From NCBI RefSeq assembly GCF_000012325.1, contig NC_003910.7, positions 4,092,001 through 4,156,000 of the forward strand: a stretch of 64,000 bases of DNA, written 5' to 3'. Under the pieces are notes generated by a model that did no database searches, had not been told where the DNA came from, and saw only the letters and a program-made list of their open reading frames with translations. Positions 47,779-64,000 of this stretch are shown here, in pieces. The first letter of the stretch is position 1. Every line of letters starts with the position of its first letter. The translations under genes and the position numbers were made by a program. This stretch comes from Colwellia psychrerythraea 34H (GTDB taxonomy: Bacteria; Pseudomonadota; Gammaproteobacteria; Enterobacterales; Alteromonadaceae).

Positions 47779-49725
47779 TTATGCACCGTGAATGATACGT
47801 TTATCAATCAGGTTTTCAACAACACTTGGATCTGCCAATGTTGAAGTATCTCCTAAACTATCTACATCATTCTCAGCAATCTTACGTAAAATACGACGCA
47901 TGATTTTACCTGAACGTGTTTTCGGTAAGCCCGGTGACCATTGAATGTAATCAGGTTTTGCAAAGCGACCTAACTCTTTCGCCACAAATTCACGTAGCTC
48001 TACATTTAACTCGTCTGATTCAGTCGCGTTGCCCATTAAGGTCACGTAACAATAAACGCCTTGGCCTTTAATTTCATGTGGGTAACCAACAACAGCCGCT
48101 TCAGCAACAGCTGGATGAAGTACTAATGCACTTTCAATTTCAGCAGTACCTAATCTGTGTCCTGAGACGTTAAGCACATCATCAACACGACCTGTTATCC
48201 AGTAATAACCATCTTCATCACGTTTAGCGCCGTCACCAGTAAAGTAATTACCAGGGTATTGACCTAAATAAGTTTGATAGAAACGATTATGATCACCATA
48301 AACGGTACGTAATTGTCCTGGCCAACTTGCCGTCATTACTAACAGACCTGCATTTTCACCTTCTAAGGTATTGCCGTCTTTATCAAATAGTGCCGGTTGT
48401 ACACCAAAGAATGGCTTACCCGCACAACCTGGTTTCATATCGACTGCACCAGGTAGTGAAGTAATTAAAATACCACCTGTTTCTGTCTGCCACCACGTAT
48501 CAACAATTGGGCAATTACTCTTGCCAACAACTTCATAATACCAATGCCATGCTTCAGGGTTAATTGGCTCACCTACCGTACCTAACAAGCGTAAAGAGGA
48601 TAAATCAGCTTGATTAACTAAATCATCACCAATACTCATTAATGCACGAATGGCAGTAGGTGCTGTGTAGAATACGTTAACTTTATGTTTTTCACAGACT
48701 TGCCAAAAACGACCAGCATCTGGGTAAGTTGGTACACCCTCAAATACTAGAGTAGTTGCACCGTTTGCTAACGGGCCGTAGAAGATATAAGAGTGACCAG
48801 TAATCCAACCAGCATCGGCTGTACACCAGTAAACTTCGCCTTCTTTATAATCAAACACATACTTGTGTGTCATCGCAGCATAAAGAATGTAACCACCACA
48901 AGTGTGTACTACACCTTTGGGTGTGCCCGTTGAACCTGAAGTATAAAGAACAAATAAAGGATCTTCAGCATCCATTACTTCTGGTTCACAGATTGCTGAT
49001 TGTTTCGCAACGGCTTCTTCGTAGTTGATATCTACTTTATCATTCCAAGCAACATCACCACCGGTACGAGCAACAACAATTACTGAGTGAACGTTAGGAC
49101 AATCAATAACCGCAGCATCAACATTTGATTTAAGTGGAATACGTTTACCACCACGTAATGATTGATCCGCAGTGATTACCACTTTACAGTCTGCATCAAG
49201 TACGCGCGCTTTAATTGATTCAGTAGAGAAACCACCAAATACAACAGAGTGAATGGCACCGATACGTGCACACGCTAACATCGCGTAACCTACTTCAGGG
49301 ATCATTGGCATGTAGATACATACTCGGTCGCCCTTTTTAACGCCGCGTTCTTTTAATAAATTAGCAAAACGACAAACATGGTCGTGTAATTCTTGATACG
49401 TTACTTTTGAGTCATCATTTGGATCATCACCTTCAAAAATAATAGCTGTATCATTTGCTTTAGTCGCTAAGTGGCGATCAATACAGTTATAACTTACGTT
49501 AAGTTTACCGCCAGAGAACCAGTTAATTTCAGAGTTTTTAAGATCAACTTTACTTACGCTGTCCCAAGGTTTGTACCAGTCAATAAACTCTTTCGCTTGC
49601 TCGCCCCAAAATTCATCAGGTTGCTCAATTGATTTTTTGTACATAGCATCGTATGTAGCCGCATCAATGTGGGTATGCGCTTTAGCTTTCTCTGAAACTG
49701 GATAACAAGATTTTAATTCTTTCAT
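47779..49725 (-). CDS. acs: Acetyl-coenzyme A synthetase
   Basis: A 648-residue AMP-forming acetyl-CoA synthetase, the usual length. The adenylation motif is [14 protein letters not shown], the acyl pocket is in [10 protein letters not shown], and the C-terminal lysine (acetylation target) is in [16 protein letters not shown]. It activates acetate to acetyl-CoA through acetyl-AMP. AAGGAAG precedes the ATG. The gene stands alone with a strong terminator. Confidence 0.97.
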
Positions 49726-49756
49726 TTTCTCTTCCTTCGGACTTAACTTGAGGTTA

Positions 49757-49819
49757 TTAATACCATTGGGATTAATTAATTAACTTTACGTTGACCCATT
49801 AATTAACCCATTGGTATAA
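49757..49819. repeat. Large palindromic repeat, TTATACCAAT family
   Basis: TTAATACCATTGGGATTAAT on one side and ATTAACCCATTGGTATAA on the other form arms of about 22 bp around an AT-rich centre, just upstream of acs. A shorter relative is at 46052-46087. Confidence 0.6.
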
Positions 49820-50225
49820 CATGAAATATTTTTTATTTATATTGTTCATTCATCAACGTTAAATATCTTTTAATAATTTTTACATATTATTTGAACATAG
49901 TTTTAACGTATTGTTTTCTTTATTTCCAGCAATAAAACTACATAAGTTCTGCAGCTAACGACAATTGGATAACTAACATGCTAAAATTTTTAATCCGACT
50001 TTAATATACAACTTTAGTATTAATTTAAGTTTTTACTCTAAAAAATTGTAAGCAAAAATGGCTGGACAGTACCATACCATTGAAAATAAAACATGACAAC
50101 GCTGTCATTTCTTACCTGAATGTTTACCATAAAAAAGCACCTGGCATGAGTTATTGGCTTTATGCTTATTTATTAATAGATAGCGCTACTTTGCCAAATT
50201 TAGTTACCTGTTAGATATTTCAGGT
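49820..50225. other. Intergenic region, no gene seen
   Basis: AT-rich sequence between the acs promoter side and the end of the TonB receptor gene. I see no open frame with a binding site and no terminator that I trust. Confidence 0.4.
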
Positions 50226-52991
50226 TTAAAACGTTACTTCCACACTGGCTATTACCGAACGGCCAAAGATAGCTCTCGCGTAAAAATTAGTACTATTACG
50301 GTGCGCTAATGCATTTCGAGGGTTACCTTCAGTTAATCCAACACTGTTGGTTATATTTTTACCGTGTAGCGCAAAGCTAAACTGCTTGGTAAGTTGGTAA
50401 GTAAAACCTAAATCGATAACAGAGTAAGCCGCTAACGAAAAATTATTAGCAATATCTGAATAGCGTTTCCCTATATAAGCGTAGGTTAAAAAAAACCTCG
50501 CCTTATCTATAGTGTAACTCGGACTAATACGTAATTGGAATTCAGGCGTTCGAGTAATTTGATTACCATTATATGCACTTTCAATCGCATCACTGGGAAT
50601 GCCACTAAGTACAGCTTTTTGCCAAACGCCTAGGCCTGCAACGGTTAGCTGCTTGGTTAAATTAACAGTAAAGTCAAATTCAATACCTCTAGTTTTAGTA
50701 TCAATAAAAATACTTTGTTGGCGATCATAAATGCCACGAAATACGGTAAAGGGTAATGGATTAAAGCGAGTTTCAAATAATGCAGCCGTTATACGCCAAT
50801 TATTGTCAGCTAAACGTACGCCACCTTCAGCAAAGGTTAATTCAACGGGGTCACCAAAACCAGCTTCTTCTGGGATAGTGTCTTGATAATCCCCCCAACC
50901 TATCTCATTGCCAAAATTAATTAGCTTCGGCATTTCAAAGCCACTCGATAAATGAAAAAATATTGCAGATAATGGTGATAACTGATAATTACCACCTAAA
51001 TTCCATGCAAGCTTGTTAAAGTCATCATTTTTAGTAAAAGTGTAACCGCTCTTGTATACCGCATCAAAATTACTATCCGCTAATGCATAAACACTATCAG
51101 TACCCGCGGTTGATGTTAATGATAAGTGCTCCCAACGTAACCCAAAGTCTAAAAGTAATGGCGTTATAGGCTGCCATTCAAGGTAACCATAAATAGAATT
51201 AGATATAGCTTCCCCTTCTCCATCTAAATAACCCGGCCCCGCATACGAGGTGAAACCTTGTTCACTGAAACTAGCAACAACATTATCGCGATCATCAAGT
51301 GCGACAATATCTAAACGACGTGGCTGGTCTTTTACTTCGGTTAGGATTTCCCCTTGCCATTTATCGAGAGGTAAACTGCCAAAATCATTGTAGGCGAACA
51401 TATGTCCTAAGCTGACTTGCACTTCATCTAAATCTACATTGACACTAAAATGATTTAGCCATTGTTTTTGCTGATAATGTGAATATAGAGGGTACGCGGT
51501 AGTGATTAATCCATTAGAGTTTAAGTCAGCAGGATTTGAAATTATTTGTTGACTGTGACTATAAACATAAGCAGGTTGGGTTGCCCCTTGTGATTGTTGT
51601 TGATTAATAAAATCAGTTATATCCTTTTGTTTAAGTCGCTCAGCTGCATCAAGTAAGGTGTCATTACCCAAATTAATTAAGGCATACATGGTGTTTTCCA
51701 TATCAGCAACACTGAACTTATTTTTAAGTAAGATCTTTTCTGCTACATCCCAATCAATACTGGCATTAAAGCGGTGTAATTTACTTTGTTGACCATCTTC
51801 AATGTCACGTTGAAAAGAACCTTCGGGGCTTTTAAAGGTAAGGTTATTAAAGTCGGCACTGAGTAAAGTGCCATAGCTAGCATCTATGCCTGTAACACCT
51901 TGTGGGGAATTAGCATTGGTCATAGGTGTGGGTGAGAAAAAACTGGTTTTGTCATCCAAAAATCGATAGGAAAAATTCATTTCAGCAGCTTTAGTCTTTC
52001 GCGTAAGGTTAACCTTAAATTGACCGCCCTGATCTGCCGTATAACCGGGTTCACGTACACCGTCACTTTGCCGATAAAAGCCACCAAACGCATAAAACCA
52101 TTGCTCATTAATGGCGCCACTTGTTAAGCCATCAAGCCGAGTAAAGTGATGATCAAGCCCCTGACTAAGCTTAAGTCGATTAACTTGTTTTTCAGTCCCT
52201 TTAGCCGTAATAAAATTTACAATCGCAGCAGGTCCATTAAATGTAAAAATACCGCTACTTCCGCCACGTATTGTTTCTATTCCCTGAGTCATTAAATCTT
52301 GTCGCAGAAAAAAATCTGGCCAAACACCATCATAAACAATAGGGATGCCATCTTCCATCAGGCTGATAAATCGAAAGCCCTCACCTCCCCTTAACCCACG
52401 AGGTGCAACATTATTATTTGTTTCGCCGCCAGATCCTTCTACCCAAAATCCAGGTACATTTTGTAATAACTCTGCAGTATTTTCATTAGATAACTGCTGT
52501 AAGGTACCGCTACTTATATAGCTTACCGAAGTAGAAGAAGATAATAGGTTTCTATTTTCACTTCCATGCCCCGTCACCAAAATATGCTCCCATACACGAT
52601 TAACCTCTAAAGCATCGCTATTTTCAGGGGCAACAACTGTCTTAGGAAGAATAAGGATGACGTGTGTATCCACTAAAATCTGATAATTAAATGGGCTATC
52701 TCTTAATACCTGAGAGAGTAAATCGTCCAAACTCGATTGCTGCTTTAGCGCTTTATAGCGTTTATTATCTTCTCCATACTCAACATTAGCGCGCATAACC
52801 AATTGCATATTGGCTTGCTTAGCAATACTCAGTAGCATGTTATTTAATGTGCCCGCAGTAAGTTCAAAGTCAAACTCTTGAGCAAAGGAAGTAGAGGATA
52901 AAAAGAAAGAAACGACTAAAACACTATTAAAAATAACGCTTTTAATAGTGTTTAAACCAATAAAAAAATTTGAGGTCGGTGTATAAATCAT
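50226..52991 (-). CDS. TonB-dependent receptor with STN signalling domain (FecA-like)
   Basis: A 921-residue outer-membrane receptor. The signal peptide ends near TSFAQ. A secretin/TonB short N-terminal (STN) domain spans roughly 38-118 (FDFELTAGTLNNMLLSIAKQ). A plug with APRGLRGGEGFRFIS and IRGGSSGIFTFNGPAA follows, then a 22-strand-type barrel. Receptors with STN signal to a FecR-type protein when loaded. The gene follows fecR and fecI, and a paralogue without STN lies at 57641. The substrate is unknown; the nearby hexosaminidase points to an amino-sugar glycan. Confidence 0.9.
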   Translation of the reverse strand: MIYTPTSNFFIGLNTIKSVIFNSVLVVSFFLSSTSFAQEFDFELTAGTLNNMLLSIAKQANMQLVMRANVEYGEDNKRYKALKQQSSLDDLLSQVLRDSPFNYQILVDTHVILILPKTVVAPENSDALEVNRVWEHILVTGHGSENRNLLSSSTSVSYISSGTLQQLSNENTAELLQNVPGFWVEGSGGETNNNVAPRGLRGGEGFRFISLMEDGIPIVYDGVWPDFFLRQDLMTQGIETIRGGSSGIFTFNGPAAIVNFITAKGTEKQVNRLKLSQGLDHHFTRLDGLTSGAINEQWFYAFGGFYRQSDGVREPGYTADQGGQFKVNLTRKTKAAEMNFSYRFLDDKTSFFSPTPMTNANSPQGVTGIDASYGTLLSADFNNLTFKSPEGSFQRDIEDGQQSKLHRFNASIDWDVAEKILLKNKFSVADMENTMYALINLGNDTLLDAAERLKQKDITDFINQQQSQGATQPAYVYSHSQQIISNPADLNSNGLITTAYPLYSHYQQKQWLNHFSVNVDLDEVQVSLGHMFAYNDFGSLPLDKWQGEILTEVKDQPRRLDIVALDDRDNVVASFSEQGFTSYAGPGYLDGEGEAISNSIYGYLEWQPITPLLLDFGLRWEHLSLTSTAGTDSVYALADSNFDAVYKSGYTFTKNDDFNKLAWNLGGNYQLSPLSAIFFHLSSGFEMPKLINFGNEIGWGDYQDTIPEEAGFGDPVELTFAEGGVRLADNNWRITAALFETRFNPLPFTVFRGIYDRQQSIFIDTKTRGIEFDFTVNLTKQLTVAGLGVWQKAVLSGIPSDAIESAYNGNQITRTPEFQLRISPSYTIDKARFFLTYAYIGKRYSDIANNFSLAAYSVIDLGFTYQLTKQFSFALHGKNITNSVGLTEGNPRNALAHRNSTNFYARAIFGRSVIASVEVTF

Positions 52992-53051
52992 CCCGACTTA
53001 TATAAGGGCGTTGTCATATATGCTCTCATTATTGCTATTATAATTTTAAAG

Positions 53052-54242
53052 CTATTCCTTACGTTTTACGATAACGACACTATTACCGTGACGTTGTACC
53101 TCAACAGGAAAAATATAAGGTAGGGCAATTAACCAGTCATCCACTTTATCGTATATCACGCTACCGGTATAGCCCATGTTAGCCACCTGTTTATTGGGTA
53201 TATGAATAGATAAAGTAGAGTAGCGTTTCAAATCAAAAATCACGTTAGCTAAATCAGTATTAACATAATTTAATCGGCCATCTTGCCATGCCATACGCTC
53301 ATTAACCTCAATCGCATAGGTTGTTGAAAATTGACCTAAGCTATCAAGTTCAAGTGCTTGCCCTGCCACAAGGGTAGCGACTTGATTTTTGTCACTACTG
53401 TTAGTTACTTTAGACTTAACCTCTGGCTCAACGTTCACCTCAACAATACCCTCTAATACTGAAACTTGCATCGCGCTTTTAGACTCTCTGACATTAAAAA
53501 TAGTACCCAACGCTTGTACGCTACGGCCATGATTATGCACAATAAAAGGTCTTTCTTTATCTTTTTCAACAGTAAAAAGCGCCTCTCCATACAATAAATG
53601 AATATCTCGACGGTTAGCTGAGTAATCAATAAACACCTGTGACTTAGCCGCTAAAACAATAATAGATCCGTCTTGTGCGGTAATAGTTTTATGCTCGCCT
53701 AACTTTGTTTGATATTCGTTGGTACGCAAGGTACTTGAACTTGCTACTTGTAATGGTTTATCGGTCGTAACCATCTCGCGGTTATATTGTGTAAATGTAA
53801 TAAAAGTCGCAAAAATGACACTGGCGAAACTGGCCGTATACATAGTTTTTCTCAAGGTGAAGAAGGAAATAAATTTCGCCAAAATACTTTCTTTTTTTAA
53901 AGCATATGGATTAACTCTGGAGGAAGTATTTACTGCAGAGCTCGGTGTCATTGATAACCCAAGTAAGTCTTCACTAAATAAATCGACGGGAAGCTCATCA
54001 GCTACTTCCCAAAGGGTTTGTAGTTGCTGATACACTTTTTTATGCTGGGCACTCAAAGATAACCAAGCGTTTAATGCCTGTTGATTGTTCTCAGAGTCAT
54101 CTTCTTCAATAGTGAGCAACCATTGAGTTGCTTCATCACTTATTTGAACATGTGTTTTATCGCTTAATGGCTCATCTTGAGTTTTGCCAAACTGGGCGCT
54201 TTCAACCGGGTTCTTATTTTCTTTAATATCAATTGGTTTCAT
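53052..54242 (-). CDS. FecR-type anti-sigma factor/signal transducer
   Basis: A 396-residue protein. A cytoplasmic N-terminus with the family pattern SDEATQWLLTIEEDDSENNQ and WLSLSAQHKKVYQQLQTLW precedes a transmembrane helix near 135-152. The periplasmic FecR domain follows (TKLGEHKTITAQDGSIIVLA, VLEGIVEVN), with a C-terminal part that contacts the receptor STN domain. It relays receptor occupancy to the sigma factor. It lies 42 bp after the sigma gene on the same strand. Confidence 0.9.
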   Translation of the reverse strand: MKPIDIKENKNPVESAQFGKTQDEPLSDKTHVQISDEATQWLLTIEEDDSENNQQALNAWLSLSAQHKKVYQQLQTLWEVADELPVDLFSEDLLGLSMTPSSAVNTSSRVNPYALKKESILAKFISFFTLRKTMYTASFASVIFATFITFTQYNREMVTTDKPLQVASSSTLRTNEYQTKLGEHKTITAQDGSIIVLAAKSQVFIDYSANRRDIHLLYGEALFTVEKDKERPFIVHNHGRSVQALGTIFNVRESKSAMQVSVLEGIVEVNVEPEVKSKVTNSSDKNQVATLVAGQALELDSLGQFSTTYAIEVNERMAWQDGRLNYVNTDLANVIFDLKRYSTLSIHIPNKQVANMGYTGSVIYDKVDDWLIALPYIFPVEVQRHGNSVVIVKRKE

Positions 54243-54284
54243 AGTTTGCTCTAGTCAAAGTGACTATCTATTTAATGCATTAAG

Positions 54285-54842
54285 TTACAAATCTGACTTG
54301 AGTTCATCAAAGCAGTGTCTGACTGCTCTTAGGACATATTTTCGTACCATACTCTCTGATACTTCCAAGGTGCTAGCAATATCCGCATAAGACATGCCTT
54401 TTATTTTATATAAAATAAAAGCTTGTCGACACTTAAGAGGTAGCGTTTTGATTGACTCTGACATTTTACGCAAAAGCTGTTGAGATTCATTCTTCCGCTC
54501 GGGCGAGGTACTTTCGTCACTATAATCTTCTTGTTCATGCATTGACTCCAACGGACTTCTTGCGTTAGACCTGAGCTTATCAATAGCCAGATTTAAGGCA
54601 ATACGATAAAGGTAAGCTTGGATATAACTGCTTATTTCTTGGTTATCGAGTCCAAGTAATTTAACAAAAGCTTCTTGAACTACATCTTCGGCCTCACGTT
54701 TAGCTAAACCTTTTGCCATAACACGGTGAATCAAGCGTAGATGATGATCTTGATACAGCAATTTGACTTGGGCCACTCTCTTTTCATCAGAAGAAGCCTG
54801 TTCAATATTTTTTAAAAAATCAGTCATAACTAACCACAACAT
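54285..54842 (-). CDS. ECF sigma factor, FecI type
   Basis: A 185-residue extracytoplasmic-function sigma factor. Region 2 includes AEDVVQEAFVKLLGL, and region 4 includes LPLKCRQAFILYKIKGMSYADIA, as in FecI-like factors. It should recruit RNA polymerase to receptor and related genes once released by the FecR-type partner. An ATG five codons downstream (54827) is also possible; neither start has a strong ribosome binding site. Confidence 0.92.
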   Translation of the reverse strand: MLWLVMTDFLKNIEQASSDEKRVAQVKLLYQDHHLRLIHRVMAKGLAKREAEDVVQEAFVKLLGLDNQEISSYIQAYLYRIALNLAIDKLRSNARSPLESMHEQEDYSDESTSPERKNESQQLLRKMSESIKTLPLKCRQAFILYKIKGMSYADIASTLEVSESMVRKYVLRAVRHCFDELKSDL

Positions 54843-54967
54843 ATCGAATTTCTACTAAATAAGAGGCCATTGCAACACGGTAAGATAACAGGATTAAATC
54901 CTTGTAGTGCCATGGGAGTGCCATCGTATTCCTTTAATAAAGATTGCTGGATACTTATAAAACGAAT

Positions 54968-55004
54968 GAGGTGGCATTTTTGGGAATAAATAAATAATTT
55001 TATT
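54968..55004 (-). promoter_or_regulatory. Motif shared with the TonB receptor at 57.6-60.1 kb, upstream of the sigma gene
   Basis: Read on the plus strand, GAGGTGGCATTTTTGGGAAT then AAATAAATAATTT. The block at 60332-60360 matches it (GAGGGGATATTTGGGAATAA then ATAATTAAT). It lies about 126-160 bp before the sigma gene start. It could be a promoter or operator common to both genes. Confidence 0.5.
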
Positions 55005-55118
55005 TTTACTCCACCTAATTTACTTTTATCATACCTAAGGAAGTCACTATTACCATAATCTAAACGAAGTAGTCTAAACCTCTTCGTTAAATAACTTCCC
55101 TAGCGTTTTTTATATAAA

Positions 55119-57449
55119 CTAATAGACTGCAATCTCATCGATATATAAAGGAAGTTTTGGTATTTGTGGATCAGTAGAGTTCTTAGCATTAATAGCAATA
55201 ACACGAAGAAATTGCATTTTTACTTGCTCAAAGTCTAAGGTTAATAACGGCCCTTTAATTTGAGTTGGCGTTAAACGTAATAATGATTGCCAATTAATGC
55301 CGTCATTCGAAACTAACACTTCAACTGACACAGGAGGCTGCAACTGCCTGTGTTTACCGGTATCAATGCCCAGTTGCACTTGACTGAACTCAGTGGCCTG
55401 CTCAAAATCAATAATCGCATCTAGATCCTCATCGTAAAACACCGCAAAATCATCAACATTGTAATACTGCTGGTAAGCCATAATGCCATCTAATAAACGT
55501 TCTTCACCCGTTTTTGGAGGTGCAGCAAAACTGATTTTTTTACCTAAAGCTTTATGCGGCGCTAACGCCACATTCACTTCACTAAAAAGCGTTCTTCCCT
55601 GGGCTGATTCGACAGCCACCCGTATTAACACTGGCTGCGTTACTGTGATGGCATTCTTATATAAATAGGTTGCTTTACTGTAGGGGGCGGGTTCACTACC
55701 ATCAATAGTATAGAATATATTCTTCCCCGCAATATCGGCTGTTAAGTTTACGGTTAATTCACCACTTTTTACAACGTCAATCTTAGTGCTTGCGGTAAAA
55801 GCACTGGTGCTTGGGTTAAGCCCCATTTTCTGATATCGCGTAATAATATGATCAACATTAGCACTATAACGAGACCAGTTTTTATTTGTCGGTTGTGTCC
55901 AAAATACTTCAGCTAAAGCACTTAACCTTGGTAATAACATGTACTCCGCATGGCGGGGACTCTCAATGTACTCTGTCCATAATGCCCCTTGTGCACCTAG
56001 AATATGTTGTTGATGCTGTGGTGATAAATCTGCCGGTACTGGGTCGTATCCATAAACCATTTTAAGGGGTAAGTAACCATGAATGGCTTTAGGTTCATCA
56101 ACTGAACGCGATTGATAAGCATCTAAATAAGTATATTGGTAAGGGCTCATTATTACATCATGTCCAGCTTCACTTGAAGCAATACCTCCTTCAATACCGC
56201 GCCACGACATAATCACAGCGTCTTTGGCAATACCACCTTCAATGATTTCATCCCAGCCAATAAGAGTTTTATCTAAGCCGGTGATGATTTGACTAACACG
56301 TTTAATAAAGTAACTTTGTACCTCTTCTCCATTGGTTAAGCCCTGCTCTTTCATCAACTGTTGTACAAAGTCACTTTCAAGCCACTGTTTTTTAATCACC
56401 TCATCACCACCAATATGAATATATTTTGATGGGAACAGAGTCGCAACTTCTTGGTAAACTTTAGCAAGCATAGTAAAAGTATCCTCAGTAGGGCAAAGTA
56501 CTTCTTCAAATATACCAAAGCGTTGCTCAACCTTAACCAGATTTTTATGGCAAGAATATTCTGGGTAAGCCGCTAAAAATGCAGTGCTATGCCCCGGTAC
56601 ACCCACTTCTGGAATCACCTCAACATGAAGTTCTTTAGCATAAGCCAATACCTCTTTAATTTGTGCCTGAGTATAAAAACCACCATGGGATTTATTATCA
56701 AACACTGATTGATAATCGTAAGTGTGACCGACAACCGTTTGTGCGCGATGCCCGCCCACCGAAGTTAATTTAGGAAACTGCTTAATTTCAATACGCCAAC
56801 CTTGATCATCGGTGAGGTGCCATTGAAAATAGTTAATTTTATGAAATGCTAGCCAGTCGATATAACGTTTTACAAAGGTAACATCAAAAAAATGACGGCT
56901 TACATCTAAGTGCATACCGCGATGTTTGAAACGTGGTGCATCAATAATATCAACACTAGGTAATAGCCATTGCGCTTTATTAATTGGCATACGGCTTTCT
57001 ATATCACTTGAGAATAACTGCCTTAAGGTCTGCGCAGCGTAGAATAAACCAACTTCGCTACTGGCACTAGCCGTGACTTTGTTGGCATCAATGGTTAAAT
57101 GATAACTACCTTCAACAGCTTCTTCACTTGATTTTTCCAGCAGTAAGAACGCTATTTTATTAGCCGAATTAGCCAATTTATACTGTAACCTAGCTTCTTC
57201 TGTAGTCAACAATGATGGCAAATATCCTGTGGCTGGTTGTATGAAGTCACTAAAATAATGAGCAACTTTTTTAGCGTCATTATTGGTATAAATTAATTGA
57301 GTTTCATTATTAAAGGTAAAGGTTTCTTTTCCCCAACTCACTTGTTGAGGATATGGGAATAGCGCGTTTTGCTGTGCACTTTTTTGTGCGCCAGAGGTAA
57401 AGGGTGACGCAGATAAAGTAAGCAATAATAAAAAAAGTGATATTTTCAC
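55119..57449 (-). CDS. Beta-N-acetylhexosaminidase, GH20
   Basis: A protein of about 776 residues that removes terminal GlcNAc/GalNAc from glycans or chitin oligosaccharides, probably periplasmic or outer-surface. An N-terminal GH20b domain comes first. The catalytic domain has the Asp-Glu pair in HIGGDEV (about residue 345), GWDEIIEGG and the substrate tryptophan region LWTEYIES. A chitobiase C-terminal-like domain (YTIDGSEPAPYSK) and a discoidin-like module follow. The start is taken at GTG 57449 (GAGGATTATTT upstream, then KISLFLLLLTLSASP as signal peptide); a longer frame begins at ATG 57482 inside a terminator stem. Confidence 0.9.
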   Translation of the reverse strand: MKISLFLLLLTLSASPFTSGAQKSAQQNALFPYPQQVSWGKETFTFNNETQLIYTNNDAKKVAHYFSDFIQPATGYLPSLLTTEEARLQYKLANSANKIAFLLLEKSSEEAVEGSYHLTIDANKVTASASSEVGLFYAAQTLRQLFSSDIESRMPINKAQWLLPSVDIIDAPRFKHRGMHLDVSRHFFDVTFVKRYIDWLAFHKINYFQWHLTDDQGWRIEIKQFPKLTSVGGHRAQTVVGHTYDYQSVFDNKSHGGFYTQAQIKEVLAYAKELHVEVIPEVGVPGHSTAFLAAYPEYSCHKNLVKVEQRFGIFEEVLCPTEDTFTMLAKVYQEVATLFPSKYIHIGGDEVIKKQWLESDFVQQLMKEQGLTNGEEVQSYFIKRVSQIITGLDKTLIGWDEIIEGGIAKDAVIMSWRGIEGGIASSEAGHDVIMSPYQYTYLDAYQSRSVDEPKAIHGYLPLKMVYGYDPVPADLSPQHQQHILGAQGALWTEYIESPRHAEYMLLPRLSALAEVFWTQPTNKNWSRYSANVDHIITRYQKMGLNPSTSAFTASTKIDVVKSGELTVNLTADIAGKNIFYTIDGSEPAPYSKATYLYKNAITVTQPVLIRVAVESAQGRTLFSEVNVALAPHKALGKKISFAAPPKTGEERLLDGIMAYQQYYNVDDFAVFYDEDLDAIIDFEQATEFSQVQLGIDTGKHRQLQPPVSVEVLVSNDGINWQSLLRLTPTQIKGPLLTLDFEQVKMQFLRVIAINAKNSTDPQIPKLPLYIDEIAVY

Positions 57450-57465
57450 AAATAATCCTCGGTAT

Positions 57466-57502
57466 AAAAAACCCGATTTCATGCCATGTAAATGAAATCG
57501 GG
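57466..57502 (-). terminator. Intrinsic terminator in the hexosaminidase leader
   Basis: CCCGATTTCAT pairs perfectly with ATGAAATCGGG (11 bp, nine-base loop) and is followed on the minus strand by TTTTTT. It lies 139 bases past the upstream receptor stop and 17 bases before the hexosaminidase GTG, so it ends receptor transcription or acts as an attenuator. Confidence 0.88.
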
Positions 57503-57640
57503 GGCAAATAAATCAACGACGCTCAAGGGTAAAGCGTATTAATGCCATCAACGTGTGTTTGTTTTACGTATACTGATTTACGTGTATCTAGGGCTAGCCG
57601 TGGCGGTATAAATCATCACAGCTACCCCTCAATTTAACGC

Positions 57641-60148
57641 TTAAAAATCGTAGGTTAATGAAGCTGTGAACGTTCGACCTAAGATTGGACGAGCATAGTA
57701 ATATTCAAAGCCAGCTTGTTGGTCATTAATTGCACGAGGATTACCTTCCGTCAAACCAATTTCATCTGATAGGTTAGTTGCTTTTAAGTGAATACTTAAC
57801 CCTTGATTGAAGTGGTACATAACACCTGCATCTACGGTGGTATATGCAGGTAAAGCGAATTCATTTTGACCATCAGAGAAACGTTCCCCTAAATGATGAA
57901 TTGTTAAGTACACATTACCTTCGTCGAAATGATAAGTCGGCGTTACGCGCATTTGTATCTTAGGCGTACGCTTAACTTGATTGCCTTCCCAATGACTGAA
58001 ATCACCTTCAAAGCCTTCCATTTTAGGGTCTTGTACTACACCAGTCAGCTCTATTGAGATGCTCTCAACTGGCCGCCAAACGGCCTCGAATTCAATACCT
58101 GTAGTAATTGCATCAACCGTTTGGTTAGACACTTCACCGTTACTACCGGTAAAGTTACGCTCAGTTAAGTCTTGAAAATTAGTATTAAATAAGGTCACGG
58201 AAGTACCAATAGTATCTCCTGAATAACGAACACCTATTTCACCGAAAGTAAGGTTTACCGTTTCATTAAACTGTGCATCTTCGCCTGAGTGAATACCTTG
58301 ACCATGGCTAAGTAAACGTGGCATTTCAAACGCATCAGCATAACGACCGAACATGGCAATATTTTCATTAAAGGTATAATTAAAACCTAATGTCCATGCC
58401 GTTTCAGTAACATCCATTTTTTTATTGAAGAAAACATTAGAAGGCATATCCGTATAGTTGTTTGCCATAATGTTATCAGTATCATTGCCATTAGCATCAA
58501 AAGCGCCATCAACTTCTTGTGCAAATGAAGTGCCTGAACCAGTACTATTTAAACTTAAACGCTCAACCCTAATACCACCATCGAGTCTTAAATCATCGGT
58601 AACTTGAAATTCTTCATTAACGAAAAGTGAGTGCGAGCTTGTGGTGCCATAAGCAGTTGCTTGACCCCAACCTGGCGCATATCCTGTAGAGCCTTTATCG
58701 GTAAGTTGACCAATAACACCACCTTGTGAGTCAAGCGCAACAATATCTAAACGACGTGCATTGTCTCTCACCTCGGTTAAAAATTGTGACTCCCACTTAT
58801 CTACAGGCAAATCATCGGCATCAACACCAGCATATAACCAACCGAAGGTTAAACTGTGAGCATCATTTTCGTAAGTAAAACTTAGTTTAGTCACTAGTTG
58901 GTCAGCTTCATAACGCGAGTAAAGTGGGTAACTTGTTGTAACTAAGCCATTACCGTTAAGGCTACTGGCATCGTTAAATATTTCACCTGAGTTCACAAAT
59001 TGATAAGCTGCACTTACTGCACCGTCATCAGCAAAATGAGTTAGCATATTTTGAACATCATCAGCTTGTAAGCGCGCATTGCCATCAACCAGAGTTGAGT
59101 TATCAAAGTTGAGTAAGATATACATATCATTTTCTAACTTAGAGTAACGAGCTTTTGCATTCATATACCAGTTATCAGATAGGTCATAATCAAACTCAAA
59201 ACCTAAAGTAGTCACTTTAGTGTGCTGGCCATCTTCAAGATCTCGGTTTAAATAACTACCATCTTGTTTTAAATAACCAAGGTTTTGCTGATCTTTACCA
59301 ATAAGCGTACCTGATTGAGGATCAACTCCTGGTATGCCTTGAGGGTCGGCTTGGTTTTGCAATGGAATAGGCACATAAAAAGTGGTGTGGTCATCAAGAT
59401 GTTTTGCTGAAATAGTCAATTGACCATTATCAAACTCACGGACTAAATTGGCACGAATTTGACCACCTTGATCAGCAGTAAATTCCGTATCACGCACACC
59501 ATCTGATTGGCGGTAAAAACCACCCACTGACATTTTCCAGTCTTCGCTGATTGGAGCCCCATAAAAACCTTCAAGACGAGTCATACCATAATCTGCATAT
59601 GATAACTTAACTGTACCTTCAGCTTCATCGCTAGGTTTACGGGTAATAAAGTTAACTAATGCGGCGGGACCATTGGTGGTAAGTAATCCACTTGTTCCGC
59701 CACGTACTGCTTCCATTCGTTCAATGGTAATATCTTGACGCTGATAAAAATCAACCCATACGCCATCATATACAACCGGTAAGCCATCTTCTTCGACACC
59801 AATATAGCGAAACCCTTCACCACCACGTAAACCACGAGGTGCTACGTTATTATTCGTTTCGCCGCCTGAATCTTCTACCCAAAAACCAGGTACTGATTCT
59901 AATAAATCAGCAGTACCTAAAGGCATTTCTCTGGCAAGTTGCTCTGGACCTAAAGAAGTGACTGATATTGATGATTCTAGAATAGTTTGGCCACGGCCCG
60001 TATTACCCGTTACTACAATGCGTTCTAAATCTGCAACTGCTGGTTTGCCTGCTTCTTTTTTTACTTCTTCAGCCATTGCTGAAGAGCCTATTGCAAGTGC
60101 TGCCAATGTTGCACAATAAACCGCAGATTTTTTAAATGTAATGGTCAT
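57641..60148 (-). CDS. TonB-dependent receptor without STN domain
   Basis: A receptor of about 835 residues for active uptake across the outer membrane. The signal peptide ends near SSAMA. A TonB-box region, LERIVVTGNTG, leads into the plug with APRGLRGGEGFRYIG and VRGGTSGLLTTNGPAA, nearly the same as in the receptor at 50226, so the two are paralogues. There is no STN domain, so it cannot signal to the FecR-type protein. The ATG at 60148 has GAGGG six bases upstream; a GTG seven codons earlier does not. Hexosaminidase follows 191 bp later on the same strand. Confidence 0.9.
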   Translation of the reverse strand: MTITFKKSAVYCATLAALAIGSSAMAEEVKKEAGKPAVADLERIVVTGNTGRGQTILESSISVTSLGPEQLAREMPLGTADLLESVPGFWVEDSGGETNNNVAPRGLRGGEGFRYIGVEEDGLPVVYDGVWVDFYQRQDITIERMEAVRGGTSGLLTTNGPAALVNFITRKPSDEAEGTVKLSYADYGMTRLEGFYGAPISEDWKMSVGGFYRQSDGVRDTEFTADQGGQIRANLVREFDNGQLTISAKHLDDHTTFYVPIPLQNQADPQGIPGVDPQSGTLIGKDQQNLGYLKQDGSYLNRDLEDGQHTKVTTLGFEFDYDLSDNWYMNAKARYSKLENDMYILLNFDNSTLVDGNARLQADDVQNMLTHFADDGAVSAAYQFVNSGEIFNDASSLNGNGLVTTSYPLYSRYEADQLVTKLSFTYENDAHSLTFGWLYAGVDADDLPVDKWESQFLTEVRDNARRLDIVALDSQGGVIGQLTDKGSTGYAPGWGQATAYGTTSSHSLFVNEEFQVTDDLRLDGGIRVERLSLNSTGSGTSFAQEVDGAFDANGNDTDNIMANNYTDMPSNVFFNKKMDVTETAWTLGFNYTFNENIAMFGRYADAFEMPRLLSHGQGIHSGEDAQFNETVNLTFGEIGVRYSGDTIGTSVTLFNTNFQDLTERNFTGSNGEVSNQTVDAITTGIEFEAVWRPVESISIELTGVVQDPKMEGFEGDFSHWEGNQVKRTPKIQMRVTPTYHFDEGNVYLTIHHLGERFSDGQNEFALPAYTTVDAGVMYHFNQGLSIHLKATNLSDEIGLTEGNPRAINDQQAGFEYYYARPILGRTFTASLTYDF

Positions 60149-60331
60149 ATTTTCCCTCAAGCTTTTCACTTTGTTTTAATTGAATTAGCGCTGTTTCGTT
60201 TTAGCTCTTTTTAATTTAATTAACGTTGTTTCGATTCAACGTCGCTTAGTTGTAAATTTTGTTGCTAAAGCGCAATAAAGTGATATGAAATAAGTCAGCT
60301 TTATTTTGCTTACATAGATAAATACGTAAAC

Positions 60332-60360
60332 GAGGGGATATTTGGGAATAAATAATTAAT
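60332..60360 (-). promoter_or_regulatory. Motif shared with the sigma gene, upstream of the TonB receptor
   Basis: Read on the plus strand, GAGGGGATATTTGGGAATAA then ATAATTAAT, matching 54968-55004. It is about 184-212 bp before the receptor ATG. The core TTTGGGAATAAATAA is identical in both places. Confidence 0.5.
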
Positions 60361-60447
60361 TAAATTTAATAATTATTTTACTGAGGGCTTTAACTATCAC
60401 GTTAATTATGGTGCTAATTGTTACTTTAATTGAAGTATTACAGGCAT

Positions 60448-60472
60448 AAAAAAACCGAGCACATGGCTCGGT
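60448..60472 (-). terminator. Intrinsic terminator of the DUF6172 gene
   Basis: ACCGAGC and GCTCGGT form a seven bp stem, followed on the minus strand by a run of T. It lies 34 bp past the stop. Confidence 0.85.
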
Positions 60473-60506
60473 CATTTATTAACTTTAAACAGTAGCGATG
60501 TGCTAA

Positions 60507-60824
60507 CTAGTCTTCAAAGTCACTTTCTTCTTCATCTCTTGGCGTAAAGGTTCTAATACCTTCTTTTGCTTCGATTTCAATGTAAAATGACGTTAAGCCT
60601 TCAACTTGAGTTTGATCAATACGTTTATTAATCTCTGACAATTGTACTGGCTCTGCTTCTTCTTTGGTGTTACCAAATTGGCAATCAAAATCCCAAAAGT
60701 CAGCACCTGCTGGTAATTTTTTGTTGCGCTCTCTTTTAAGATACTTTTTAACTTCATGCTTTACAGCATCAACGCGTCTTTCAAGTTTTACTTTCGGGTG
60801 GGTTAATTCAAACGTTTTTTTCAT
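60507..60824 (-). CDS. DUF6172 family protein
   Basis: A 105-residue protein of unknown function. Its start MKKTFELTHPKVKLERRVDA, then VKHEVKKYLKRERNKKLPAG and FWDFDCQFG, is the hallmark of the DUF6172 family found in many proteobacteria. The C-terminus is acidic (DEEESDFED). A stand-alone gene with its own terminator. Confidence 0.82.
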   Translation of the reverse strand: MKKTFELTHPKVKLERRVDAVKHEVKKYLKRERNKKLPAGADFWDFDCQFGNTKEEAEPVQLSEINKRIDQTQVEGLTSFYIEIEAKEGIRTFTPRDEEESDFED

Positions 60825-60997
60825 GGTGGGCCTTAAGTCAATGGCTACAATTACTCGTCTATAAGACGAGAAAAAGGTGTAAATAGTATAATGTCGGCTA
60901 TTTTACGTTACTTTCACGCAAGTAGCGAGATAGGATAGCAACACAAGCATAAAAACCTGAGTGTGTTGCCGATAGACCTGTTTTTATAGCCTTAACA

Positions 60998-61954
60998 CTA
61001 CAATGACAACATTGATTGAGTTGCCGCAATCAAGTGATGCTTAGTGTTTGGTTCAACAGAAGCATGACCTGATGCCTCACTAATAACAAGACGCGAATTA
61101 GGTAACTGTTGATGTAATAACCACGCATTATCAGCAGGACAAACAATATCATAACGACCATGAACGATAGTCGTTGGAATATCTTTTATTTTATCGCAGT
61201 TCGCTAAGATCTGATTGTCAGTTAAAAAACAATCATTCACCATAAAGTGTGCCTCATGGCGAGCTAATGTCCAAGCATGGTCGTCACCTGTAGCTGCATC
61301 AACAAAGGCTTGATCAGGTATTAAGGTACAGCAACGGATTTCCCAAATACTCCAAGCCGTTGCTATTTTTTGCGCTAGGGCTTTATCCTCACCAATCAAC
61401 ATTTCGTAAGCCGCTTTAGTCGTCGCTTGTTCTCTGCCTAGCGGAAGTACATCAATATAATCTTGCCAATAATCAGGGAAAATACGTGTTGCCCCGCCAC
61501 CTGAAAATGTCCAATTAGTATCAACCTCACGTCCAAGGAAAATACCACGTAAGACTAAACTTTTAACACTGACCGGATGCGCCTCAGCATAGACTAAAGA
61601 TAACGTAGAGCCCCACGAACCACCAAACACATGCCATTGTTCAATATTCAAGTGTTGGCGAATCTTTTCTATATCTGCAACTAAGAAATTGGTTTCGTTG
61701 TTATCTAGACAACCATGAGGTAATGAACGACCACAGCCACGTTGATCAAATAAAATGATATGGTATTGCTCAGGATCAAAAAAACGCCTGTCATTAGTTG
61801 AACAACCGCCTCCTGGACCACCATGAATGAAAAGCACGGGTTGCCCTTTAGGATTACCACACTGCTCTACATAAATTCGATGTTGGCCATCAACATCAAG
61901 TAGAAAGTCATTAAACGGGGATATTTCAGGGTAAAACTGATTCATCTTGTTCAT
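60998..61954 (-). CDS. pip: Proline iminopeptidase
   Basis: A 318-residue alpha/beta hydrolase of the S33 family that removes N-terminal proline from peptides in the cytoplasm. Visible blocks are the oxyanion loop HGGPGGGCS, DQRGCGRS, the nucleophile elbow GGSWGSTL (Ser near residue 113), and the Asp/His regions HGRYDIVCP and ASGHAS. ATG at 61954; a second ATG three codons on is possible. Confidence 0.93.
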   Translation of the reverse strand: MNKMNQFYPEISPFNDFLLDVDGQHRIYVEQCGNPKGQPVLFIHGGPGGGCSTNDRRFFDPEQYHIILFDQRGCGRSLPHGCLDNNETNFLVADIEKIRQHLNIEQWHVFGGSWGSTLSLVYAEAHPVSVKSLVLRGIFLGREVDTNWTFSGGGATRIFPDYWQDYIDVLPLGREQATTKAAYEMLIGEDKALAQKIATAWSIWEIRCCTLIPDQAFVDAATGDDHAWTLARHEAHFMVNDCFLTDNQILANCDKIKDIPTTIVHGRYDIVCPADNAWLLHQQLPNSRLVISEASGHASVEPNTKHHLIAATQSMLSL

Positions 61955-62614: not shown

Positions 62615-63742
62615 TCACAAGTAATCGTTAATATTACCGTGCTGATTAATGGTTCGTAGCACCTGTTGATTTTCCCCCATACCGCCAATCGTTATTAACT
62701 GATCATCTAAAAGTAATAAACCTCGGTGGTCCATTGTTGCGTTAGGTGTTGTTTTAACTTGCCAACCTTGGGTTTTAATATCATAAATCCATACGCCATT
62801 ATCAGGCGTTGAGGCCTGTCCGTTATAACCTATACCATTGAAGTTATAAGGATTGTCACTACCGCCAATAAAAATAATTTTTTGATATTGATCGATTCCG
62901 ACCGCTGCCATGCGGTATCTTGATTTTCCTGTCGGGTGAGGTAATAATTGCCATGCTATTTTACTTGGATCTTTTTGATCTATTTTTCCTACATAACAAC
63001 TTGCTTCAGCTGCATAACTTCGACGTTTATTGATATGAACATCAACTCGTACGCCATCACAAATAACAAGCGTATTACCAACGATTCCGCCTGCTTGTCC
63101 AAATACCGGTTTCCCTGGAAATGGGCTTGCTTGCTGCCAAGTATCTGTTTTTATGTCGTATAGCTGAACCAAGTTAACATTTCCATCATTATGCCAACCG
63201 CTAACTAAATAGATATATCGGTTATCATAAGGCAGAGCAACGCTATCATCGACAGGCACAGGCATAGATGCCAGTTTTTTATAGCTCGCATTAGTCACAT
63301 CATAAGAATAAACATCAGGAACTGATACTTCACTATGATCTTTCGCAACAGTATAACCACCAAAGATATACGCTTTATTATTTATGCTCGTTGCAACACT
63401 AGCCAAGCGCCCCGTTAAACCATTAATCGGTTTTTCAATCGGCACAGGGGCAATAGACTGCCATTTTTTCAGATTAACATCATAGATAAATGCCTTATTA
63501 TGAACATCTTGATAGGTCTTATTTTTACCTAAACCAGAAAAAGACAATAGATAGTCTTTATTCTCAATAGAAAGCTGAGTAACTGCGTTATTAGCGACAG
63601 GCTCGGGTAATAAAGCTAATTCAGTTTCGTGTAGTGAATTAGCTCGAACAGATAGGGTAAAACTAAACAGAACTGTTAAATAAAAGAACGCCGATATACT
63701 TTTAGTAAATAGATGAGCAGTGAAAAAAAATGATTTAGGCAT
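62615..63742 (-). CDS. Kelch-repeat secreted protein (NanM-like beta propeller)
   Basis: A protein of about 375 residues with a signal peptide ending near SVRA and six kelch-type blades (for example SFSGLGKNKTY, AYIFGGYTV, YLVSGWHNDG, IFIGGSDNP, LITIGGMGE). The closest known type is the N-acetylneuraminate mutarotase NanM and related sugar-handling propellers, but assignment to a reaction is uncertain. The ATG at 63742 (MPKSFFF) was chosen because the 29 upstream codons, beginning with TTG, run into the MITE-like repeat starting at 63773. Confidence 0.7.
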   Translation of the reverse strand: MPKSFFFTAHLFTKSISAFFYLTVLFSFTLSVRANSLHETELALLPEPVANNAVTQLSIENKDYLLSFSGLGKNKTYQDVHNKAFIYDVNLKKWQSIAPVPIEKPINGLTGRLASVATSINNKAYIFGGYTVAKDHSEVSVPDVYSYDVTNASYKKLASMPVPVDDSVALPYDNRYIYLVSGWHNDGNVNLVQLYDIKTDTWQQASPFPGKPVFGQAGGIVGNTLVICDGVRVDVHINKRRSYAAEASCYVGKIDQKDPSKIAWQLLPHPTGKSRYRMAAVGIDQYQKIIFIGGSDNPYNFNGIGYNGQASTPDNGVWIYDIKTQGWQVKTTPNATMDHRGLLLLDDQLITIGGMGENQQVLRTINQHGNINDYL

Positions 63743-63772
63743 AAATATAATCCGAATGTTTAACATGTTATA

Positions 63773-64000
63773 TATACCCGCTCCACTTGATGATGCTCGT
63801 TTCAGGAAGTCTGATCGCTTCATAATCAAGGCTCATTTTTTTATTAATGGTCATTCCCTTAAAAAGAAATGTAACGAAGAGTATGATTTGCTCAGCCTTC
63901 CCCAAGAGGCTGGTTTAGAAACGCTTTATGCTGCGTTACTGATTTCGACAATAGAACAACTATTATCTTCAATCAATGCCTTGCCTAAAGGCGTTTCTAA
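63773..64000. mobile_element. MITE-like element, long form, cut by the window end
   Basis: It begins TATACCCGCTCCACTTGATG and in reverse complement follows the copy at 16183-16496, including the block beginning TTAGAAACGCC (at 64000) and the AACCAGCC/GAGCAA region. The far terminal repeat would lie just beyond the window. Confidence 0.7.

Follow-up and report, generated by a model that had tools for sequence, protein, structure and literature searches.

Among described systems, the FecA-FecR-FecI system of Escherichia coli, which responds to ferric citrate, is close in its parts to the locus reported here. Both have a FecR protein and an ECF sigma factor; the STN domain on one receptor and the control of a target receptor gene by the sigma factor, two further traits of the E. 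coli system, are proposed for our locus. Bacteroides species carry ECF/anti-sigma (FrrF-type) SusC loci, in which an outer-membrane glycan receptor is accompanied by a FecR-type anti-sigma protein, an ECF sigma factor, and glycosidases (PMC3878776), and a comparable sigma-FecR-SusC/SusD locus for xylan is described from Rhodothermus marinus (PMC6987092). The nag and chitin loci of Alteromonadales combine a TonB receptor with a GH20 enzyme for amino sugars. Carbohydrate TonB receptors are also found in the CUT loci of Xanthomonas and more widely in aquatic and plant bacteria (PMC1790865). For Xanthomonas, the same source describes a sole transducer-type receptor that is Fur-regulated and preceded by fecI and fecR, with a Fur box upstream of fecI. 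No FecI/FecR-GH20-TonB cassette in Gammaproteobacteria was recognised among titles and abstract openings in the open-licence literature.

The five-gene block analysed here lies in a 64,000-nucleotide stretch of Colwellia psychrerythraea 34H DNA (hereafter the window), which spans bases 4092001-4156000 of a 5.37-Mb genome in one contig. We propose, with a probability of roughly 0.7, that the block works as a self-contained cassette for cell-surface signalling in response to an oligosaccharide bearing beta-HexNAc, a reading in which the signalling steps, the operons and the ligand class are predictions from sequence. The cassette differs from FecA-FecR-FecI in that its sensor and importer are two paralogues, it adds a GH20 gene, its sigma operon has the same motif as the target and includes the STN receptor, and a low-power search revealed no Fur box. 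Compared with the Bacteroides SusC loci it shows no SusD match, keeps the sensor apart from the importer, belongs to Gammaproteobacteria, and carries an amino-sugar enzyme, a GH20 that resembles Bacteroides BT0459. Unlike the nag and chitin loci, it has no kinase, deacetylase, or inner-membrane transporter, whereas the nag locus of the same genome (L142) has no FecI/FecR match in 20 kb.

Gene content of the cassette

The features of the cassette are as follows, in window positions and all on the minus strand.

50226 to 52991, minus strand: TonB-dependent receptor with a probable N-terminal signalling domain (STNrec), the proposed sensor; assigned from profiles, fold, and tree
53052 to 54242, minus strand: FecR-type anti-sigma regulator; FecR (E=1.3e-21) and DUF4880, with FecR_C weak and under its cut-off
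54285 to 54842, minus strand: FecI-type ECF sigma factor; Sigma70_r2 and r4_2
54961 to 54986, minus strand: proposed promoter of fecI-fecR-STNrec, TTCCCAAA-N13-TCGTT; 13/13 consensus matches
55119 to 57482, minus strand: GH20 beta-N-acetylhexosaminidase (GH20a); Glyco_hydro_20 (E=4e-116), Glyco_hydro_20b, and CHB_HEX_C_1
57472 to 57502, minus strand: intrinsic terminator-like hairpin of 11 pairs followed by a T run, in the gap between REC and GH20; from a hairpin scan
57641 to 60169, minus strand: TonB-dependent receptor lacking a signalling domain (REC), the proposed bulk importer; Plug and barrel Pfam domains
60323 to 60348, minus strand: proposed REC promoter, TTCCCAAA-N14-CGTA, the motif in a weaker form; 11/13 consensus matches

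The ORF list together with Pfam and NCBIfam profiles bears out the five minus-strand genes, and the families, that had been described from the bare sequence. REC probably starts at the ATG at 60148, where the earlier note also ended the locus, and the sigma factor has an alternative ATG start at 54827. The NCBIfam matches of the sigma factor are FecI-like and fall below their cut-offs. From its families and hydropathy, the FecR protein is predicted to be a regulator of the one-pass anti-sigma type. It has a hydrophobic segment near residue 133, and such a segment is present in 17/17 loci (best 19-residue hydropathy 1.33-2.49, the lowest value being that of the window). The cassette was also considered as a polysaccharide utilization locus (PUL) of the Bacteroides kind and rejected as such, since SusD was not found: none of the five window proteins matches this family in Pfam, and BLAST matches in the other loci are to these same five proteins, with one additional GH20 in ten of them.

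Between fecI and its proposed promoter there is a 34-codon ORF (54820-54924, minus strand) that, by eye, has a likely ribosome-binding site. Its stop codon and the alternative fecI start overlap (ATGACTGA), an arrangement seen by eye that hints at translational coupling.

Conservation and linkage

REC, GH20, the ECF sigma factor, FecR, and STNrec occur together in all 17 loci compared, which come from Colwellia, Thalassotalea, Bowmanella, and Pseudoalteromonas. These are the window, G059, four loci from a family-wide search (G142, G221, G321, and G332), and 11 named loci from a scan by REC alignment, namely Bowmanella pacifica, eight Pseudoalteromonas, Thalassotalea sp. 1_MG-2023, and Colwellia sp. 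D2M02. Three loci bear two labels (L115 is G029, L113 is G202, and L109 is G138), and several are closely related, with some REC pairs more than 90% identical in DNA. The block is present in each of the 11 named loci (with STNrec split in L118 and reaching the end of the fetched stretch in L112), but because these loci were found through REC they provide no linkage test on their own. Among 99 relatives including the C. psychrerythraea genome itself, the block is found in that genome, G029, and G059.

Separate searches of 395 family genomes with REC (E<=1e-100, 15 genomes) and GH20 (E<=1e-80, 15 genomes), scoring at most two candidates per genome, gave REC at 71% identity or higher in nine genomes and GH20 at 51% or higher in the same nine. 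The two genes are adjacent in 9/9. The earlier note had left it as a check whether the GH20 gene is conserved with the other four, and this adjacency, with the 17/17 loci above, indicates that it is. Chance co-occurrence of the five genes is also excluded, given that the block recurs in 17 loci. The six remaining genomes of each list have weaker matches, and the two sets share no member: REC-like receptors of 36-40% identity in G051, G126, G137, G170, G198, and G408, and GH20 proteins of 34-44% in G041, G107, G116, G175, G176, and G304. These REC-like receptors have other neighbours, with a Trp-halogenase-like gene in the partly annotated flank of G126 and lactone-oxidase-like and RPE65-like genes in that of G198, which suggests that the wider receptor family is probably not entirely devoted to amino sugars. 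REC, FecI, and FecR were sought in the GH20 neighbourhood of G175, and none was found.

The genes flanking the cassette vary between genera. In G321 the order of its modules is swapped, such that GH20b-fecI-fecR-STNrec is followed by REC-GH20a. An additional GH20 gene (GH20b) is present behind the second promoter in 10 of the 17 loci, comprising the eight named Pseudoalteromonas, G321, and G332. A search of a plasmid collection returned two records above 60% identity, both of them Pseudoalteromonas replicons larger than 1.2 Mb. One is the G332 replicon; the other, from P. piscicida, has the complete block along with both motif sites and is thus an 18th locus, which stands outside the counts given here. 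Carriers of the cassette also include P. prydzensis DSM 14232 and Pseudoalteromonas sp. NC201.

A common putative promoter motif

The main new result is a common motif, a putative promoter, TTCCCAAA-N14-CGTT, that is present ahead of both transcription units in 17/17 loci (34/34 regions). Comparison of upstream regions placed it, as TTCCCAAA-N13-TCGTT, ahead of REC and ahead of whichever gene opens the second unit. Pseudoalteromonas loci have the second promoter ahead of the added GH20 gene and not directly ahead of fecI. The sites were initially noticed by eye, in loci that then also served for the tests. Matrices built without the genus being tested select the listed site in 34/34 regions, and 0-2 of 100 dinucleotide shuffles score as well. 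Control regions before GH20, fecR, and STNrec never reach the lowest true score of 8.5 (0/50, top control 6.6). The trinucleotide CGT is invariant over 28/28 distinct sites, and a −10 element of the CGT type fits iron-starvation sigma factors. We propose that the motif is an ECF-sigma promoter for both units, which the sigma factor of the cassette would recognise. For L116, L118, L119, and G332 the consensus scan chose a site in a coding region; the intergenic sites were used for these loci, and the matrix test chose them as well.

The REC promoter of the window, at 11/13 consensus positions, is one of seven sites with this score, and only the REC site of G321 is lower (10). It is equalled by 2 of 200 shuffles, or by 0 of 100 when scored with the matrix from the other genera. 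By comparison, the promoter of the fecI unit is the sole exact match in the 5.37-Mb genome. A strict form, TTCCYAAA-N13-TCGTT, occurs 10 times in nine whole genomes, always at the cassette, whereas the backward pattern occurs 16 times. A 12-base form occurs five times in three genomes, again always at the cassette. The strict form covers 10 of the 18 cassette sites of the nine genomes, and since it misses the other eight, weaker targets may exist outside the cassette. A wider sigma regulon is not claimed, because matches with at most one mismatch, exact ones included, are fewer than those of the backward control in three genomes (22 versus 60 in G000, 13 versus 55 in G029, and 16 versus 43 in G059).

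The two receptors

STNrec matches the STN profile weakly, with E=0.02 and 15.1 bits where the cut-off is 28.4, and it is not among the matches of a whole-genome search with the STN profile. Its orthologue in Bowmanella (L109) gives E=1.8e-6 and 28.1 bits, just below the same cut-off, and that in L113 gives E=0.0083, while three of the five orthologues scanned (L111, L035, and L036) have no STN match at E<=0.1. In addition, the predicted fold of STNrec has a beta-alpha-beta pattern at residues 40-116, in a model with a mean pLDDT of 58. Our tentative assignment of the domain is based on the stronger Bowmanella match and this predicted pattern.

REC and STNrec are 40% identical over 805 columns. 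Their plugs had been described as nearly identical, which is overstated given 61% identity over the plug (106 aa) and 70% over its core (84 aa), although the plug is indeed more alike than the barrel (38%). In a tree of 39 receptors, REC (17 sequences) and STNrec (16 sequences, from all loci except L118) form separate clades with support of 100/99 each, and long branches were flagged by the program. These two clades and the same motif at both units uphold the view of the earlier note that a paralogous sensor and importer share one FecI/FecR set. Divergence is greater on the regulatory side than in the importer, and the promoter motif persists: relative to the window, identity is 70-85% for REC in the 16 other loci, compared with 41-60% for STNrec and 30-46% for FecR. 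STNrec retains a TonB-box-like segment and a whole barrel, and hence may also transport. In Pseudoalteromonas sp. HM-SA03, STNrec is present as two ORFs (L118:19718-22376), and the remaining cassette ORFs are of normal length.

Among solved structures, siderophore receptors (Fiu, FhuA, and FoxA) are closest in fold to both receptors, and the best NCBIfam match of each is TonB-siderophor, below its cut-off. The fold search cannot separate iron from sugar. Confidence in the models is low to moderate, and the PDB is rich in siderophore receptors.

GH20 enzymes and the nature of the ligand

A glycan with terminal beta-HexNAc would be the safest statement of the ligand class. The catalytic motif of GH20, H[IV]GGDE with its Asp-Glu pair, is present in 17/17 loci. 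An amino-sugar glycan or chitin had been suggested from the sequence, and the first part of this idea fares better: an amino-sugar ligand appears likelier than iron, judging from the linked enzymes and the lack of a recognisable Fur box (a weak test), whereas chitin is unsupported in the window genome. In that single-contig genome a GH18 search had no match (GH19 was outside the search), and there is a separate nag locus (L142) with a receptor, a chitobiase-type GH20, a BadF-type kinase, NagA, and an MFS transporter.

A more specific but tentative reading is that the cassette serves N-glycans or other glycoconjugates, with GH20 trimming antennary GlcNAc from the imported glycans. The best solved relative of GH20a in the PDB is 6q63 (464 bits, residues 32-767), and the chitobiase entries are far lower. 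This structure is named BT0459 in PMC7426924, and PMC10154615 attributes to BT0459 a broad activity on the antenna GlcNAc of N-glycans. GH92 is present in 8/9 cassette genomes, a count made in cassette genomes only, with two genes in the window genome. However, these two genes lie beside a LacI-type regulator and a receptor of their own, the cassette includes no other N-glycan enzyme, and one cassette genome (G059) lacks GH92.

More doubtful is a system for chitin oligosaccharides or oxidised chitobiose. The second GH20 of Pseudoalteromonas is chitobiase-like, with CHB_HEX and chitobiase-type domains in both of the proteins scanned (two of ten), one of which matches 9joq at 367 bits and the chitobiase entry 1qba at 314 bits. 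Moreover, GH18 is found in 8/9 cassette genomes, although like GH92 in the same proportion it does not point to one substrate. The TonB-dependent receptor OngOT-2 of P. prydzensis ACAM 620 is induced by GlcNAc1A, lies outside the ong cluster, and is not under OngR (PMC9537276). OngOT-2 could or could not be identical with the cassette REC, as the passages that describe it give no locus tag. Deletion methods are published for ACAM 620, whereas the P. prydzensis strain in which we find the cassette is DSM 14232. The chitin reading is weakened by the window genome, with its separate nag locus and no GH18 match, by the distance of GH20a from chitobiases, and by an identity of just 28-31% between GH20b and the nag-locus GH20.

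It is quite improbable that the system signals with an iron chelate (siderophore), beside a chance GH20 or with a GH20 that trims a glycosylated siderophore: the receptor folds and profiles above lean this way and FecI/FecR systems usually concern iron (PMC9249621, PMC1790865), but GH20 is kept in every locus and doubled in ten, no iron gene is present among the annotated neighbours within the window, and Fur boxes were not detected by two weak tests, with 0/34 upstream regions above shuffles (low power, E. coli consensus, two Xanthomonas boxes scoring 8/19) and no box close to the cassette when as many as three mismatches were allowed (17 matches in the genome versus 9 for the backward control).

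The gap between REC and GH20

A strict hairpin scan of the gap between REC and GH20 was positive in 15/17 loci, the exceptions being L115, where a hairpin with a longer loop is visible by eye, and G321. A hairpin and T run located 3′ of REC suggest that GH20 is probably a read-through product. Because the called ATG of GH20 falls within the hairpin, the real start is probably the GTG at 57449. By eye, the N terminus of the protein is of the signal type.

In the window (57480-57600, minus strand), L115, L036, and L113, which are Colwellia and two Thalassotalea-type loci, the gap shares ACACACGTT-A-GGCAT, a hairpin, and a TTGCCCCCG stretch ahead of the terminator. This conserved stretch could be an attenuator or a 3′-UTR small RNA. 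An Rfam search of window positions 49700-61000 at E<=1 returned no match, and the gap is therefore treated as a terminator region rather than as a known RNA.

Proposed circuit

The FecI/FecR/STN circuit described in the earlier note is supported by these comparisons, and we infer its operons and signalling steps as follows. STNrec would bind the glycan outside the cell, and its N-terminal domain would signal to FecR, which would in turn allow the ECF sigma factor to act. This factor would read two promoters of one type, that of its own fecI-fecR-STNrec operon and that of REC-GH20, and the former would provide positive feedback. REC would bring the glycan in, while the terminator after REC would hold GH20 at a lower, read-through level. 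Presumably, periplasmic GH20 then clips terminal GlcNAc or GalNAc, and the products might join the general amino-sugar route (MFS, kinase, and NagA) encoded elsewhere in the genome.

A bolder extension is conceivable, though we would not rely on it: the cassette might be an insulated, transplantable circuit with one input, in which the two cassette promoters are the entire sigma regulon, a duplication split sensor from importer, and GH20 genes were added during spread. The odds of a two-promoter regulon are reduced by the eight cassette sites that the strict motif misses. If this reading were true, the cassette would be a proteobacterial counterpart of the ECF-controlled glycan loci of Bacteroides that has spread among marine Gammaproteobacteria, with a fast-evolving sensor receptor, a conserved importer, and one or two GH20 enzymes behind the same sensor.

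FecI/FecR circuits are normally taken as iron systems, and the cassette is a conserved case whose linked genes point to an amino-sugar glycan. Its promoter motif is clear enough for a test with one reporter. The split between sensor and importer offers a natural way to tell apart the parts of a TonB receptor that signalling requires and those that transport requires, and the pair of sigma factor and promoter might serve as an orthogonal switch.

Neighbouring and related loci

A Kelch-repeat protein related to N-acetylneuraminate epimerase is encoded near the cassette (62615-63829, minus strand). It is just above the Pfam NANM cut-off and below the NCBIfam cut-offs, and it has no BLAST match in the other cassette loci fetched.

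The same genome contains other FecI/FecR loci. At L144:1403-12463 (genome positions 241402-252462) there are genes for an STN-type receptor, whose STN match is likewise under the cut-off, a Trp-halogenase-like protein, a SapC-like protein, FecI, FecR, a sugar MFS transporter, and glucokinase. Because of this locus, a sugar-linked circuit is no lone oddity in this genome, and the suggestion that such circuits are uncommon outside Bacteroidetes-like systems is doubtful. A third set of FecI, FecR, and an STN receptor is present at L143:7327-12107 (genome positions 2947326-2952106), and next to it the opposite strand carries genes for prpF, aconitase, and citrate synthase.
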